Shown in pieces: positions 1,421-8,803 of a stretch of DNA of 33,080 nucleotides. Both the position numbers and the translations under genes were made by a program. The notes beneath the pieces are model-generated. The model was not told the DNA's origin, did not search any database, and saw only the letters and a list, made by a program, of their open reading frames with translations. The stretch spans positions 1 through 33,080 of the forward strand of contig CANRPP010000013.1 of the NCBI GenBank assembly GCA_947632545.1. The letters are read 5' to 3'. Numbering within the stretch: position 1 is the first letter of the stretch; the number at the start of each line of letters is the position of its first letter. This DNA comes from an uncultured Bacilli bacterium (GTDB lineage Bacteria; Bacillota_I; Bacilli_A; RF39; UBA660).

Positions 1421-2299
1421 TTAATTATAGTAACTTTTCTTTTGAGTCTTTATTAATTTTGCTTGTATAACTATTCTTTCTCCTTGATTATTTAAGCAAG
1501 TAGATAATGTTAGAAATTTATCATTAGTATTAACTTCTGTATCAATTGGTGCGATATTCCTTTCTTTCATTGTTTGAATCCATTTTTGTTTTTTTGTTTT
1601 ATTACTAAAATTAGTGATTATATAATATCCTTCACTTTTTATAGTGTAAATAGAAAATATTTGAAATATCATATTCTCTTTTTTAGTAGATAAGAATATA
1701 ACATAATTATCTTTATTTTTTTGCCAAGTTGGTGATAGTGTATCTTTTAATGAACCAAATAATGTTTTATCAAGTCTCCCATGTCCATAAATAATTGTAT
1801 TCTCATTTAAATTATTTATATCATTTCGATAATCCATAAAAACCCAACCTGCTTTATTATCTTTCTTATCAAAAGAATGATTTAAATAATAATTATTATC
1901 ATCTGCTTGAACAACAGGATAATTAACATTTGTATTTCTTATACGAATAAATCCCACTGTATCACTATTTTTTGATACCAGAATAGATAAATTAACTTCA
2001 TAAAATGGTGTTTTTGCATAATAATAGTAATTACTATTTCTATTGTATGGGGGATTAATTAATATACCTTTTTTACTATTATTTTTAATATCAATATTTT
2101 TATTAATTTCTGTAGTTATTTGTCGTATTTTGGAATTATCATGATACCAATTTAATATAGTATATAATGAGAAGATAATACTACCAAGGCACAATAATAT
2201 TAGAAAACAAATTAATTTATTTACCTTTATTTTTTTATTGTTTTCTGTATTTGTTGTTTGCATCTTGTAATATTCTTCTATAGTTAGATATTTTCTCAA
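1421..2299 (-). CDS. srtB: Sortase, class B-like
   Basis: 292 residues. A basic cytoplasmic N-terminus and a signal anchor (about 29-50) precede an extracellular sortase barrel. The catalytic triad is visible: His173 in IIYGHGR, Cys268 in LTLSTC and Arg275 in GERIVIQ. Sortases cleave a C-terminal sorting signal and join the protein to peptidoglycan. Class B is favoured by the NVNYPVVQADDNNYYLNH and GWVFMDYRND segments and by the two neighbouring proteins ending in NPNTSD, a variant of the SrtB-type NPxTx motif. Initiation is at TTG, chosen because GAGGTG lies 7 bases upstream; the next in-frame ATG is codon 13. It is divergent from one substrate gene. Class D cannot be fully excluded. Confidence 0.85.
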   Translation of the reverse strand: MRKYLTIEEYYKMQTTNTENNKKIKVNKLICFLILLCLGSIIFSLYTILNWYHDNSKIRQITTEINKNIDIKNNSKKGILINPPYNRNSNYYYYAKTPFYEVNLSILVSKNSDTVGFIRIRNTNVNYPVVQADDNNYYLNHSFDKKDNKAGWVFMDYRNDINNLNENTIIYGHGRLDKTLFGSLKDTLSPTWQKNKDNYVIFLSTKKENMIFQIFSIYTIKSEGYYIITNFSNKTKKQKWIQTMKERNIAPIDTEVNTNDKFLTLSTCLNNQGERIVIQAKLIKTQKKSYYN

Positions 2300-2359: not shown

Positions 2360-3019
2360 ATGAAAAAAATATTATTTTTTTCTCTTATTGCAATAATGTC
2401 ACTATCAGTATTTACAAATGTATTTGCTGCTGATACTTATGGAGTAGTAAGAGATATTACTAAACAAACTGGAGATTCTTTATCTTCTGGTAATGGAACT
2501 ATAGAAACTAAAGGAGATACAACTACTATTAGATATTCAGCTTCTACATTTAAAATGTTAGAAGCAGATAAACATGCTGCTAGTGGAGAAAGACCAGGTC
2601 CTGCAGCTTGGATTGGATTTGAAGTTGAAGAACCAACTAATCAAAAGGATTCAAAATATAAAGTAACAACTCCAGATAATAAAACAACTAGTGTTACAAC
2701 TTCCCCATATAGAGATTATGTTGGAATAACACCAGAAAATCTTAAAAAAGCTCTTTTAAATGGTACAGTATTAACCTATAAATATGCTTTCGACTGGAAT
2801 GAAGATAATGACAATGATCAATATGTTATAATTGAAATTGATCCAGAGGAACTTACTTTATTAGCAGTTAATGATGGAGATATTGTATGGTCTCCAGAAA
2901 TTGCTAAAGAAGTTTTAGCACAACAAAATCCTAATACTTCAGACATTAATGTATTTTGGTTAATTGGACTTATTTTAATTAGTAGTTTTGGTTTTAGATA
3001 TTATTTTAAGAAAATATAA
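2360..3019 (+). CDS. Secreted NPNTSD-anchored surface protein, sortase substrate 1
   Basis: 219 residues and the only long plus-strand gene here. A signal peptide (1-23, cleavage likely after NVFA) is followed by a ~165-residue ectodomain I do not recognise. The C-terminus has NPNTSD (190-195), a hydrophobic segment and the tail YYFKKI, a complete cell-wall sorting signal. AAGGAG lies at SD distance before the ATG. It is divergent from the sortase gene (60 bases apart) and convergent with the second NPNTSD protein, with a shared terminator between them. Two AxWIGFEV/DYVGITPENLKKAL-like stretches suggest a beta-sandwich ligand-binding or carbohydrate-type domain, but that is a guess. Anchoring by the adjacent sortase is inferred from the motif and proximity. 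Confidence 0.8.
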   Translation: MKKILFFSLIAIMSLSVFTNVFAADTYGVVRDITKQTGDSLSSGNGTIETKGDTTTIRYSASTFKMLEADKHAASGERPGPAAWIGFEVEEPTNQKDSKYKVTTPDNKTTSVTTSPYRDYVGITPENLKKALLNGTVLTYKYAFDWNEDNDNDQYVIIEIDPEELTLLAVNDGDIVWSPEIAKEVLAQQNPNTSDINVFWLIGLILISSFGFRYYFKKI

Positions 3020-3067: not shown

Positions 3068-3832
3068 TTATATAGATTTTATCTTCTTTATTAAAAAGAA
3101 TAATCCTAATAAAACTATTATAGATACTAATACATAAGGTAGTGAATTATCTGAAGTATTGGGATTTTCAATTTCTTGAGTATTCTTATCAGGTAATTGT
3201 GTATAGATATCTACTCCATAAGGTGCTTTTATATTACATGCCCAAAGATATCTAACATTAGTAGCATTTTTAGCTTCTTTATCTAAATCAATAAAACCTG
3301 TTGTCTCTATTTCTTTTCCATAGTTTAATACTGTAAATCTAACTTGAATTTTTCCTTCATCAGATGATTTAAATTCCCACCTATATGTATATACATCATC
3401 TTCTTTAATTATAGCCTTAAAATCTTTTGCCCAATTTGCAGTCAATATAAAATTATTATCACTTTTTTGTGTCATTACAACTGCTTCAGTTAAATACTTA
3501 TTTGATTTATTATTAAGAGCAATAGAAAGTTCAAATAAATCTAAATTCTTATAGTTTTCTTTATTTAATCCTACATAAACTTCTTCTATAATACCATCAC
3601 TTAATTTTGCTGTACTCGATTTATTAAATGGTCCATATTTCATTCCTTCTTTTTCTATAGCCTCACCTTTTAAATTAGTAACATTTTTTGTTATTTGTTC
3701 TTTTTTACCATATCCTCCTTCTGTTTGCCAATCTTTATATTCCCATTTTGTTAATGCACTAACTGACTGTGTTAATAAACAAAAAAATATAGCTCCTACA
3801 AATAATATATTTAAATATTTTTTTATTTTAAT
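3068..3832 (-). CDS. Secreted NPNTSD-anchored surface protein, sortase substrate 2 (ATT start proposed)
   Basis: From the first in-frame ATG (3643) the protein would be 191 residues with no signal peptide. The frame stays open upstream and encodes a textbook signal peptide, KIKKYLNILFVGAIFFCLL then TQSVSA. AGGAGG sits 7 bases before an ATT codon at 3830-3832, and no ATG, GTG or TTG occurs in that stretch. I therefore propose ATT as initiator, giving 254 residues. The C-terminus has NPNTSD (about 223-228), a hydrophobic segment and the tail KKIKSI, matching substrate 1. The ectodomain, with motifs such as TYRWEFKSSDEGKI, is unrecognised. Alternatives are a start-codon mutation that reduces expression, or a sequencing error. 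Confidence 0.75.
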   Translation of the reverse strand: MKIKKYLNILFVGAIFFCLLTQSVSALTKWEYKDWQTEGGYGKKEQITKNVTNLKGEAIEKEGMKYGPFNKSSTAKLSDGIIEEVYVGLNKENYKNLDLFELSIALNNKSNKYLTEAVVMTQKSDNNFILTANWAKDFKAIIKEDDVYTYRWEFKSSDEGKIQVRFTVLNYGKEIETTGFIDLDKEAKNATNVRYLWACNIKAPYGVDIYTQLPDKNTQEIENPNTSDNSLPYVLVSIIVLLGLFFLIKKIKSI

Positions 3833-4999: not shown

Positions 5000-5677
5000 T
5001 TACCTATTTTTTATTTTTTTCTTTGCATATTGATATAGTGTATCATGCCTATCCATAGTAGCTTCTACAAATTCTGAAGTAGAATTACAACCTAATAGAC
5101 TATATTCACATTGAAGTACTTTAAGTTGTTTAAATTTTTCGTTAAAATCATTATAAAACTTTGATATTATTATTCCTGCAAATACAAAATTTTTAAGCTC
5201 CACATTATTCTGAAATTCTATATTATCTATATCTTGTAAATCATCAATAATATAAGTCCCCGAATCTATAAATCTAAACATACCATCATATATAAAATTT
5301 GATAAATGCCAATCAGTAACATATATATATTTCTCAGATAATAAATTTAATTCTTTTTCTATACAATAAAGCTCTTCTATAAATTTATCTTTAGATATAT
5401 TATATAATTCTGTTTTTGATTTAGTAATTAATTCAGTAGTATAAGCTTTTAATGAACCTTCTTCATCTAAATATATTTTTTTAGGTAGTAATATTCTTTT
5501 AGTTTTTATATCTTTTAAGTAATCCCCTGTTTTTAAATCAAGATCACAGCAGTCATTATACAATATTTTTAAAGCTTCTCCATTATATTTATAAACTTTA
5601 CCATTACATCCTTTACCAATAAATTCTAATAAAGACGGATTTATAGTTACTTTTTTACCTTCTAAATATAAATTCAT
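5000..5677 (-). CDS. Small protein-kinase-fold protein (RIO/lipopolysaccharide-kinase-like)
   Basis: 225 residues. Kinase landmarks are in order: a glycine-rich loop IGKGCNGKVYKY (20-31), the ATP lysine in EALKIL (Lys37), a catalytic-loop equivalent VTDWHLSNF (Asp122 and Asn127, the HRDxxxxN spacing) and a DFG equivalent FIDSG (Asp138). All four key residues are present, so it could be catalytically active. The C-lobe after the DSG is short and there is no membrane segment. Homologues are often annotated only as protein kinase. It is last in the SDR-ecfA-ecfA-truA operon, 17 bases after truA. The substrate (protein, tRNA or small molecule) cannot be told from sequence. Confidence 0.6.
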   Translation of the reverse strand: MNLYLEGKKVTINPSLLEFIGKGCNGKVYKYNGEALKILYNDCCDLDLKTGDYLKDIKTKRILLPKKIYLDEEGSLKAYTTELITKSKTELYNISKDKFIEELYCIEKELNLLSEKYIYVTDWHLSNFIYDGMFRFIDSGTYIIDDLQDIDNIEFQNNVELKNFVFAGIIISKFYNDFNEKFKQLKVLQCEYSLLGCNSTSEFVEATMDRHDTLYQYAKKKIKNR

Positions 5678-5694: not shown

Positions 5695-6432
5695 TTAAAT
5701 ATTATATTTAACATCTACTAAATATAAACCTTCACTAGGTGCAGTTACACCACATTTACTTCTATCTTTACTATTAAGTATTTTTAAAACATTATTGTAA
5801 TCTAGTTTATTTTCACCTACTTTTATAAGTATCCCTACCATATTTCTTACTTGATATCTTAAGAAACCATTTCCTCTAAAAGTAAATATAAGTTTATTAT
5901 TATCTTCTTCTACTTTAGCAATATCAATTTTTCTAATACAATTTGGTTTATTAACATTTTCTGTAACAAATGCCCTAAAATCATGTTCTCCAATAAATAC
6001 TTTTATTGCTTCTTTAATAGCAGAAACATTTAATTTATAATTATACTGAAATACATAATTTCTCTCAATTGGATTATATTCACCCATATTAAGATAATAT
6101 TTATATTCTTTTTCTTTACTATTATATCTAGCATGAAATTTATCATCAACTATTTTTGTTTCAATAACATGTATATCTTCTGGTAAATTACTATTTAAGG
6201 CTCTTTTAAATTTATGAGTAGTAATATCTATATCTAAATCAACATGAGCATATTGACATAGGGCATGTACACCTTTATCTGTTCTACCTGATGATTGAAC
6301 AGTTTTTCTAATTCCATTATTTATTTTCTCTATTGCATTTTCTAGCTCATTTTGAATTGTTCTTAAATTAGGTTGCATTTGATATCCACAAAAATTACTA
6401 CCATCATATGAAAATTTAATTAAGTAACGCAC
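5695..6432 (-). CDS. truA: tRNA pseudouridine(38-40) synthase
   Basis: 245 residues, normal for TruA. The N-terminus IKFSYDGSNFCGYQMQP, the catalytic motif SSGRTDKGVHA (catalytic Asp in RTD), and FRGNGFLRYQVRNMVGIL near the C-terminus identify the enzyme. It isomerises U38, U39 and U40 in the tRNA anticodon stem. It lies 2 bases after the second ECF-like ATPase gene, keeping the Bacillota order ecfA1-ecfA2-ecfT-truA-rplM-rpsI except that ecfT is missing and a kinase-like gene is inserted before rplM. Confidence 0.95.
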   Translation of the reverse strand: MRYLIKFSYDGSNFCGYQMQPNLRTIQNELENAIEKINNGIRKTVQSSGRTDKGVHALCQYAHVDLDIDITTHKFKRALNSNLPEDIHVIETKIVDDKFHARYNSKEKEYKYYLNMGEYNPIERNYVFQYNYKLNVSAIKEAIKVFIGEHDFRAFVTENVNKPNCIRKIDIAKVEEDNNKLIFTFRGNGFLRYQVRNMVGILIKVGENKLDYNNVLKILNSKDRSKCGVTAPSEGLYLVDVKYNI

Positions 6433-6434
6433 TA

Positions 6435-7193
6435 TTACACCTTCTTATATATATCTTTTATTAAATCTCTTATATCTTTATTATAATTTAGTTTTATACC
6501 TTTTTTTCTAACTAAATTAGTAAATAATATTGTTTTAGGTATATTTATAGAATTATTCATTAACTTTAAAGTATTCCCTTCAAATAATTTATTTGTATCC
6601 CCTTGTATTAATAATTTATTTTTAGAAAAACATATTAAATTTTTAGTATATCTATAAATAAATTCTGAATCATTAGAGCATATTATAATAATCTTATGGT
6701 AATTATCAATTAATCTATTAAATATATCTATTACTTTTTTTCTTGTTTTTATATCAAAAAAATTAAACAATTCATTACAAACTATAATATCAGGATTAGA
6801 TAATAGAGCAGTTGCTAGTAATACTAATTTTACCTCTGATGATGATAATTCATTTATTATTTTATTTTCATAATTATTAAGACCAACTATTTTTAAAGAA
6901 TCAATTATTTTTTTTCTATAATCTTTTACTGTTAGTGTTTTATTTAATATATACATTTTCATATAATTATAAATAGATAAGCTATAATAAATATTATCTA
7001 TATTAGTATCAACTATAGATATTTTTTTATATAAAGTTCTTTTTTCTTCTTTTGTTAATCTTTTATTATCTATATAAATATTATTATTATCAAAGTCTAT
7101 TTTTTTTAAATTATTAATAAAAAAGTCATATGTTCCAATTACACCATTAATTATATTATCCGTAACTATAGCGCTATTAATTTTTACTTCCAT
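6435..7193 (-). CDS. Degenerate ECF-transporter-type ABC ATPase, EcfA2 position
   Basis: 252 residues. By position and length this is the second ATPase of an energy-coupling-factor vitamin transporter, but key motifs have decayed. The Walker A region reads GVIGTYDFFINNL (17-29) with no GxGKS/T. The signature is LSSSE (116-120) in place of LSGGE. Walker B reads PDIIVCNELF, with the Asp replaced by Asn140 but the Glu kept. The H-loop segment is IIIICSND with no His. It overlaps the upstream ATPase by 10 bases, so the two are co-translated. It probably cannot bind ATP through its own P-loop. It could form the signature half of a single hybrid site, or be an eroding gene held in frame. Confidence 0.6.
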   Translation of the reverse strand: MEVKINSAIVTDNIINGVIGTYDFFINNLKKIDFDNNNIYIDNKRLTKEEKRTLYKKISIVDTNIDNIYYSLSIYNYMKMYILNKTLTVKDYRKKIIDSLKIVGLNNYENKIINELSSSEVKLVLLATALLSNPDIIVCNELFNFFDIKTRKKVIDIFNRLIDNYHKIIIICSNDSEFIYRYTKNLICFSKNKLLIQGDTNKLFEGNTLKLMNNSINIPKTILFTNLVRKKGIKLNYNKDIRDLIKDIYKKV

Positions 7194-7960
7194 AATTTTT
7201 CTACCATCCTATTCATATCAAGTTCTAAATCATCTAATAGGTTATAATACTTAAGTTTAATTGATAAGTCAATCATAAATGGTAAATCTAGACCTGCTTT
7301 ATTTAATAAGCTATCTTTAGTTAATGCATGTGGTATATCATCATCTAAAATAACTTCTCCTTTATTTAATATAATAAGTCTATCTGCTATAGTTGCTAAA
7401 TCTAAATTATTTGATGCATATATAATAGTTAAATTACTTATAGATTTTAATTTTAACAATATTTTTTTAGAATCTTCAAAAGAAACATCACTAAATATAT
7501 CATCTAAAAATAGTACTTTTGGTTTTGATAGTAATTCTATTGCTAATAATAATGTAAGTTTTTTTATATTAGATAATTCACATATATTACGATCTAAATC
7601 TAATTCAAATAGTTTAACCATTTCTTTTAATCTTTTATTTTTTTCTTTTTTATCTATTCCTAAATTATCTAATTTATGTAATAATTCATCTTTAACATTT
7701 CTAAATATAAAATTATTTATATTATTATATAAAACTTTTCCAATTTGTGTTGATAATTCATAAGAACTAAAATTATAAATATCTTTTTTTCCATAAAAAA
7801 CTGATTCTTTCACTTCAATTAAACCACTTAATATTTTAATAAGTGTACTTTTACCACATTTATTAGAACCTGACATATAGTTAATAGCATTTTCTTGGAA
7901 ATTAATATTTATATTTTTAATAATATTTTTATATGATAAATTTTTAACAATTAATTTCAT
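7184..7960 (-). CDS. ECF-transporter-type ABC ATPase, EcfA1 position, partly degenerate
   Basis: 258 residues. Walker A is intact (GSNKCGKST, 31-39) and Walker B is LFLDD with Asp154 where Glu is expected. The Q-loop, normally FQNPDNQ, reads LYNNINN. The signature is ELSNIKKL (128-135) and the H-loop is YASNNLD with no His. The remaining layout and length match EcfA1, which drives vitamin uptake together with EcfA2, EcfT and an S component in the membrane. GGGAGG precedes the ATG. The gene lies 33 bases after the SDR gene and overlaps the second ATPase. No EcfT is encoded here. Its role may be transport, regulation or none. Confidence 0.65.
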   Translation of the reverse strand: MKLIVKNLSYKNIIKNININFQENAINYMSGSNKCGKSTLIKILSGLIEVKESVFYGKKDIYNFSSYELSTQIGKVLYNNINNFIFRNVKDELLHKLDNLGIDKKEKNKRLKEMVKLFELDLDRNICELSNIKKLTLLLAIELLSKPKVLFLDDIFSDVSFEDSKKILLKLKSISNLTIIYASNNLDLATIADRLIILNKGEVILDDDIPHALTKDSLLNKAGLDLPFMIDLSIKLKYYNLLDDLELDMNRMVEKLWK

Positions 7961-7981: not shown

Positions 7982-8006
7982 AAAAGCTAACCTTTAGTTA
8001 GCTTTT
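7982..8006 (-). terminator. Hairpin at the end of the SDR gene
   Basis: A perfect 10-bp stem, AAAAGCTAAC (7982-7991) with GTTAGCTTTT (7997-8006), overlaps the SDR stop codon. The minus-strand T-tract is short (TTTTAAT), so it may only attenuate transcription into the ATPase genes. Confidence 0.55.
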
Positions 8007-8752
8007 TTCTTTTGTATTCTATAAGCAATTCGAAGTAACATTTTATCTGATACAAATCTACTTACGAATTTAACAAGTTTCATTTGAACTCCAGGTATAA
8101 TTACTTTTTTATGTTTTTCTAACATCATATCAATTGCATATTTTGCTACATAACTAGGTTGTAATGAAGATGTTTTAAAACTAACACCTGCTACTTTATT
8201 AAAGTTAGTGTCAACTGGTCCTGGACATAATAGTGAACAAACTACATTGCTTTTTTTCTTTTTTAATTCATAATTAATTGCTTGAGTTAGTTTATATACA
8301 TAAGATTTAGTAGCGTAATATGTACTCATTAAAGGACCACCTGGCATAAAGGCTGCAGATGATGCTACATTTAAAATATAGCCTGAATCATTTTTTAACA
8401 TATTTTTTAAAGCATACTTTGTTAAAATATGAACTGCTTTTATATTAAGATTAATCATTTCTAAATCATTTGCTAAATCTGTATCCGAAAAATTACCATA
8501 ATTACCAAAACCAGCATTATTTATTAAAATATCAATTCCTTGATTTTTAATTAAAACACATAATTCTTTTACTTTTTGCTCATTACTAAGATCCATAACA
8601 ATTATAGTAGTTTTAGTAGGTAATTTTTGTTGTATAAATTCTAATCTTTCTCTATTTCTAGCTACTAAAATAAGTTCATATTTTTTAGAAGCTAAATATT
8701 TAGCTATCTCAAAACCTATACCACTAGATGCTCCAGTTATTAAAGCTTTCAT
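7994..8752 (-). CDS. Short-chain dehydrogenase/reductase (SDR, DltE/YohF-like)
   Basis: 252 residues. The classical SDR pattern is complete: the cofactor loop TGASSGIG at the N-terminus, the NNAGFG motif, a catalytic Ser in VASSAAF and the Tyr/Lys pair in YYATKSYV. The Arg in VARNRERL after the second beta strand suggests NADP(H). These enzymes oxidise or reduce alcohol/carbonyl groups on lipids, sugars or small metabolites; the substrate is not predictable. The second ATG was chosen because GGGTGA sits just before it; an upstream ATG would add only MGDN. A dedicated promoter lies about 50 bases upstream. It is the first gene of the unit leading into the ECF-like ATPases. Confidence 0.85.
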   Translation of the reverse strand: MKALITGASSGIGFEIAKYLASKKYELILVARNRERLEFIQQKLPTKTTIIVMDLSNEQKVKELCVLIKNQGIDILINNAGFGNYGNFSDTDLANDLEMINLNIKAVHILTKYALKNMLKNDSGYILNVASSAAFMPGGPLMSTYYATKSYVYKLTQAINYELKKKKSNVVCSLLCPGPVDTNFNKVAGVSFKTSSLQPSYVAKYAIDMMLEKHKKVIIPGVQMKLVKFVSRFVSDKMLLRIAYRIQKKKAN

Positions 8753-8803
8753 ATTATCACCCATAAATTTATTTTTTTATATAAACTGCAAATATTTATC
8801 TAT

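Follow-up and report, generated by a model that had tools for sequence, protein, structure and literature searches.

Repeated loss of EcfT beside a retained EcfA1–EcfA2 pair: a candidate one-site, non-hydrolysing ATPase heterodimer

To our knowledge, ECF ATPases have been regarded solely as motors that power the import of vitamins and metals. The closest described systems to the gene pair reported here are the Group II ECF modules, for example Lactobacillus delbrueckii ECF-FolT2 (5d3m, 5jsz, 8bms) and Thermotoga maritima EcfA-A′ (4hlu, 4zir), with which it shares the rplQ–truA gene order, the A1/A2 pair itself, a sequence relationship detected by NCBIfam models and a predicted fold that includes the C-terminal region. 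It differs from these modules in having no EcfT, no recognised S component and a single nucleotide-binding site, and in having lost the P-loop of A2 and the catalytic Glu of A1. In the degenerate sites of heterodimeric ABC exporters, Asp (or Asn) replaces the catalytic Glu, as in the surviving site of our pair. Such exporters (TM287/288, BmrCD, MsRv1273c/72c, MRP1), described as a class with one degenerate site in PMC12038006, are asymmetric pairs like the one here; however, their other site is active and drives transport, whereas our pair has no transmembrane domain and its second site has been destroyed.

Isolated EcfA–EcfA′ dimers close upon ATP binding, and a closed ATP-bound state was captured when both catalytic Glu residues were changed to Gln (PMC10368641). 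This 2EQ module (8bms) resembles our pair in that the catalytic Glu is gone and the binding elements are left, but it is laboratory-made and has both P-loops and EcfT, whereas our pair is natural, with one P-loop and no EcfT. By analogy, a naturally occurring pair that has a single P-loop and carries Asp or Asn where the Glu stood would be predicted to take up one ATP and remain closed.

The pair lies in a DNA stretch of 33,080 nt (the window), which is contig C13 of a 1.05 Mb, 95% complete, low-GC genome (G000) that may belong close to the order RF39. The minus-strand order is rplQ, a short-chain dehydrogenase gene (SDR), ecfA1-like, ecfA2-like and truA (Table 1), and the position of the pair between rplQ and truA is orthologous to that in EcfT-bearing relatives. 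The A1 and A2 frames share 10 bases (ATGGAAGTAA), the likely truA ribosome site falls within the last A2 codons, and no ORF is present in the ecfA2–truA interval. The SDR gene (7994–8764) stands between rplQ and ecfA1 in the genus and in many family members.

Table 1. Coordinates of the pair, its motifs and truA in the 33,080-nt window.
Feature	Position	Strand	Description
ecfA1-like ORF (A1)	7184..7960	-	258 aa; Walker A and Walker B Asp kept; Q-loop, signature, catalytic Glu, H-loop and D-loop Asp lacking
A1 Walker A GSNKCGKST	7844..7870	-	residues 31-39; G31, G36 and K37 invariant in 45/45 species
A1 degenerate signature LSNIK	7562..7576	-	residues 129-133
A1 Walker B VLFLDD	7499..7516	-	residues 149-154; Mg-binding D153 kept; D154 in place of the catalytic Glu
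A1 C-terminal region	7187..7324	-	residues 213-258; PFxxDLSxKLxYYxL and MVxxLW; highest conservation within A1
ecfA2-like ORF (A2)	6435..7193	-	252 aa; P-loop lacking; signature LSSSE and D-loop Asp kept
A2 lost P-loop position, GVIGTYDFFI	7116..7145	-	residues 17-26
A2 signature LSSSE	6834..6848	-	residues 116-120; E120 in 45/45 species; position 117 S or T in 45/45
A2 D-loop Asp D147	6753..6755	-	kept in 44/45 species
A2 C-terminal region	6438..6557	-	residues 213-252; tail D(I/V)RDLIKDIYKKV
truA	5695..6432	-	frame intact; GTG start at 6432, 2 bases past the A2 stop

Both proteins are recognisably, though distantly, ECF-type. Pfam finds ABC_tran in each, and the top NCBIfam models for both are ECF-type ATPases, with scores between 67 and 105 bits where the cut-offs lie between 315 and 392; the equivalog cut-offs of TIGR04520 (315 bits) and TIGR04521 (330 bits) were reached by neither A1 (101 and 84 bits) nor A2 (66.5 and 67.6 bits). 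Single-chain AlphaFold2 models had a pLDDT of 92.5 for A1 and 92.4 for A2, and the nearest PDB matches found by Foldseek were EcfA/CbiO proteins, with TM-scores by query length of 0.90 (A1) and 0.80 (A2). The structural alignments extend across the C-terminal helices of both subunits, with the C-terminus of A1 aligning to EcfA1 in 8bmr. The models, which combine an ABC fold with an ECF-type C-terminal region, would place both proteins in the EcfA1/EcfA2 family.

An earlier note on this DNA, made from the sequence alone, had read the first ATPase as keeping Walker A and losing the Q-loop, signature and H-loop, and the second as losing Walker A and keeping LSSSE; the motifs agree on each of these points. 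A1 has an intact GSNKCGKST and the Walker B D153, with D154 at the position of the catalytic Glu, and its Q-loop, signature (LSNIK) and H-loop are all gone. A2 has GVIGTYDFF where a P-loop would lie, N140 for the Walker B Asp, and retains LSSSE, E141 and the D-loop D147. E141, which the earlier note had listed as a kept Walker B Glu, is indeed present in the window, but it is part of the dead site and varies across the genus; what A2 conserves is the Ser/Thr and Glu of the signature together with the D-loop Asp. Neither subunit combines a P-loop with a catalytic Glu, and a fully catalytic composite site is absent. Judged from these motifs, two ATPases competent for both ATP binding and hydrolysis are unlikely to be encoded here, there being a single P-loop and a replaced catalytic Glu in the site that survives.

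The D-loop of ABC dimers touches the partner's Walker A site. We defined composite site 1 as the Walker A and Walker B Asp of A1 together with the signature and D-loop of A2, and compared it with site 2 in the 13-genome clade that contains the window. In site 1, the A1 Walker A was present in 13/13 and the A1 Walker B Asp in 11/13, and the Ser/Thr and the Glu/Gln of the A2 signature and the A2 D-loop Asp were each present in 13/13, with the A1 catalytic Glu found in 0/13. In site 2, the corresponding counts were 0/13 for the A2 Walker A, 3/13 for the A2 catalytic Glu, 6/13 for the Glu/Gln of the A1 signature and 1/13 for the A1 D-loop Asp. EcfT-less lineages of one or two genera mostly follow the same trend, with three genomes (G068, G081, G035) retaining GK at the A2 Walker A position. 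Across 45 species, the A1 GK is present in all 45, and the A1 catalytic Glu is replaced by Asp in 33 and by Asn in eight. All eight genomes of the genus that could be read, and about 50 other species, show this state, which excludes a chance origin. The proposal of the earlier note, that a heterodimer would have one live and one dead composite site, is upheld by what lineages that lost ecfT independently have conserved. A point that it did not make is that the surviving site should bind ATP but not hydrolyse it, because the catalytic Glu is missing.

Conservation sorted by the presence of EcfT separates two groups of residues. The residues conserved in both EcfT-plus and EcfT-less genera are mainly A1 G31, G36, K37 and D153, A2 S117 and E120, and both C-terminal regions, whereas A1 E154, the A1 D-loop Asp, and the P-loop, Q68, G119 and E141 of A2 are conserved in EcfT-plus genera only; the conservation of A2 Q68 falls from 0.83 to 0.04. 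The dead-ATPase motif pattern is already found in genera whose EcfT is shrunken, and from this order of motif states the loss of hydrolysis seems to precede the loss of EcfT; an independent-pair test of motif loss against ecfT loss gave 5–7 contrasts, too few for significance. The A2 D-loop Asp is missing from 13/13 genera of the second large EcfT-less clade, and 3/13 have lost the GK of the A1 P-loop. Three genomes, G015 (L109), G075 (L108) and G065 (L107), have an A1 frame of only 155–167 aa, mostly C-terminal region, in which the C-terminal motifs remain, the frame is open and the A1–A2–truA order is retained. Because this second clade loses the A1 GK, the A2 D-loop Asp and parts of A1, ATP binding is, as far as motifs indicate, not universal among EcfT-less pairs.

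The A1 and A2 frames are both intact in eight of nine genomes of the genus, and the ecfA2–truA interval is without an ORF in eight of the nine; in the ninth (G006, 66% complete) neither ATPase nor truA was detected. Frameshifts or absence in close relatives, which the earlier note would have taken as a sign of simple decay, were found in none of those with data. A survey of the family (58 genomes, 57 genera) found an EcfT-like ORF with 4–6 predicted helices between ecfA2 and truA in about 27 genomes, and 25 genera in which the pair is present and the interval has no ORF. The pair is retained in 25 of the 28 ecfT-less genera; the locus showed no pair in G034, G025 and G064. At three loci (L147:7546-8142, L148:7543-8127, L154:2922-3551) a shrunken, three-helix EcfT-like ORF of about 194–209 aa lies between ecfA2 and truA; these remnants have open frames and are without the SRG coupling motif of full EcfT. 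A fragment resembling EcfT lies at a contig end in L146. A scan of named genomes added the pair in 54 more species, nearly all without EcfT; the close relatives are gut MAGs, and more distant carriers include Candidatus Onthousia. On the best TruA tree the EcfT state changes 7–8 times, and 5–6 changes are forced by the supported branches alone. We conclude that ecfT was lost several times independently, and that the pair usually stayed.

We searched for EcfT beyond the locus with PF02361 and with a family-specific profile built from an alignment of 23 EcfT proteins of the same family. Both gave 0 matches in the window genome, with ecfT-bearing controls scoring 1e-86 and 1e-100 against the family profile; a hidden EcfT elsewhere in this genome was therefore rejected within the reach of these two profiles. 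To the same extent, the absence of ecfT that the earlier note had reported at the locus holds for the whole 95% complete genome. None of the other eight members of the genus matched PF02361, which was present in every sampled genome from other families of the class. Across 35 ecfT-less or pair-less genomes the family profile had no credible match. Short matches only were obtained in G071 and G081 (E 1e-3 to 4e-3), and these were rejected as EcfT: they cover about 45 of 251 positions inside frames of 271–582 aa and look like chance. As for the reach of the profile, it recognised the shrunken EcfT-like ORF of G072 (6e-12) and missed the locus ORFs of G016, G022 and G087, so that a very diverged EcfT could be missed. 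The earlier note had also suggested looking for a second intact set; no second EcfA set was found among the matches listed for the window genome, where the other match for A2 was an 858-aa frame (7.6e-12).

S components were sought with PF12822, PF07155, PF09515 and PF02632, with no credible match; because EcfT-bearing relatives were mostly negative too, this search is weak. Loss of an S component as the cause of EcfT loss was set aside as uninformative, the Pfam S-component families being missing from EcfT-bearing relatives as well. The genomes of this family (f1, G009–G087) gave no credible match to ThiT, to PF07155 or, in the 28 genomes searched for it, to BioY, and this applied to genera with a canonical EcfA1A2T as well. 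Three borderline PF12822 matches (L135–L137) adjoin apbE-like and FMN-binding-type genes.

The view of the earlier note that the pair is probably selected was supported by dN/dS, one of the checks it had proposed, and by a neutral simulation. Between the window genome and G001, the closest pair of genomes, dN/dS was 0.34 for A1, 0.26 for A2, 0.19 for TruA and 0.09 for the SDR, and in most comparisons the pair ranged from 0.22 to 0.43 against 0.09–0.25 for neighbouring genes. Selection on the pair is purifying, and the constraint is real yet weaker than on neighbouring genes; we regard it as relaxed because the values for the pair exceed those of its neighbours in most comparisons. In a simple neutral simulation, both frames were open in 0/400 runs at 0.1 substitutions per site. 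The C-terminal regions are the best preserved parts of the two proteins, with pN between the same two genomes of 0.04–0.17 in the C-terminal regions against 0.11–0.29 in the remainder. The A1/A2 terminal conservation may come partly from the overlap of reading frames; nevertheless, conservation at the C-terminus extends over about 40 residues. The A2 tail KDxRDLIKDIYKKV has constant amino acids and synonymous codon variation, which rules out RNA-level constraint from the truA ribosome site as the explanation of its conservation and places the constraint on the protein.

We favour, as the probable explanation, that EcfA1 and EcfA2 form a heterodimer which binds ATP without hydrolysing it and which has been kept for a role outside transport, one that predates the loss of EcfT. 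A1 and A2 would be held together through their C-terminal regions, with one ATP bound in the sole remaining composite site, between the Walker A and Walker B Asp of A1 and the L-S/T-x-S-E and D-loop of A2. No hydrolysis would be expected, because A1 has Asp or Asn in place of the catalytic Glu, and neither the Q-loop nor the H-loop survives. Since EcfT has been lost, the pair presumably cannot work as an ECF transporter, and its role would most likely be that of an ATP-clamped complex for binding or scaffolding through the conserved C-terminal surfaces. Such a role may already have existed in EcfT-bearing relatives, because the same residues are conserved there. The broader proposition, that a hitherto unrecognised, EcfT-independent function of EcfA1–EcfA2 predates EcfT loss and that several lineages independently kept the pair as a one-site, ATP-clamped, non-hydrolysing heterodimer, we hold to be evenly balanced. 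Repurposing from vitamin transport, as the earlier note had suggested, is plausible; no vitamin S component was recognised in the family, even where EcfT is present.

The main rival is slow decay, in which the ECF module has become useless in reduced genomes and both ATPase genes are eroding, their frames kept temporarily by the essential ribosomal/truA operon and by translational coupling to truA. The graded erosion across the family, from canonical modules through dead ATPases with a shrunken EcfT and then no EcfT to a truncated A1, is what decay would produce, as is the relaxed dN/dS of the pair. The A1/A2 overlap and the likely truA ribosome site within the last A2 codons would provide the coupling, and the absence of the pair from the locus in three genera suggests that it is dispensable in some lineages. 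However, neutral evolution breaks the frames by 0.1 substitutions per site, whereas the actual frames are intact at dS of 0.35 or more and across 25 genera. Nor does decay readily account for an A2 tail that varies synonymously and not in amino acids, for the selective keeping of one nucleotide site with destruction of the other, or for the parallel outcome in repeated lineages; in G034, moreover, an intact truA follows immediately on the SDR gene. We therefore consider slow decay unlikely, though a serious competitor.

It is less likely again that the pair is still a transporter motor, driving a membrane partner that is encoded at another place in the genome and is either unrecognised or highly diverged. 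The retained Walker A of A1 fits such a motor, and the shrunken EcfT-like ORFs that escape the profile (G016, G022, G087) leave room for a very diverged EcfT. However, A1 is without a catalytic Glu, Q-loop and H-loop and A2 is without a P-loop, so hydrolysis would not be expected; the Q-loop region has eroded, as the fall at A2 Q68 illustrates; and there was no credible EcfT match in the 35 ecfT-less genomes and no PF02361 match in the genus. A working transporter with a diverged partner is made improbable by this apparent loss of the elements for hydrolysis and EcfT coupling. The genomes are MAGs, and ecfT might in principle be missing through a contig break or misassembly; yet in eight genomes of the genus and on about 50 MAG contigs ecfA2 is followed directly by truA, with a gap of a few bases or an overlap, which makes an assembly or annotation artefact a negligible prospect.

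In the preferred reading of a clamped heterodimer, two intact genes that still encode a single site for ATP and the regions thought to join the subunits suggest that a pair without its membrane partner now does a different job. No description of an EcfT-less EcfA1A2 pair was found in the open-access literature searched. The natural series of active modules, dead modules with a shrunken EcfT, EcfT-less pairs and truncated pairs allows one to ask what other roles such ATPases have and how pseudo-ATPases originate. It also calls for caution in annotation: these genes may be labelled ‘ECF transporter ATPase’ and taken as a sign of vitamin uptake in gut bacteria whose nutrition is deduced solely from genomes.

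The remainder of the window contains several other ORFs of note. The ORF at 5000–5677 has no Pfam match and resembles a divergent protein kinase fold (GKGCNGKVY...EALKIL, TDWHLSNF, DSG); similar ORFs lie after truA in G001 and G005. A sortase-like ORF (1421–2299, minus strand) adjoins two surface-type proteins at 2360–3019 (plus) and 3068–3643 (minus), both of which end in NPNTSD followed by a membrane helix, not in LPxTG. At 273–1324, a peptidase/endolysin-like protein with a proline-rich repeat adjoins a small holin-like membrane protein.
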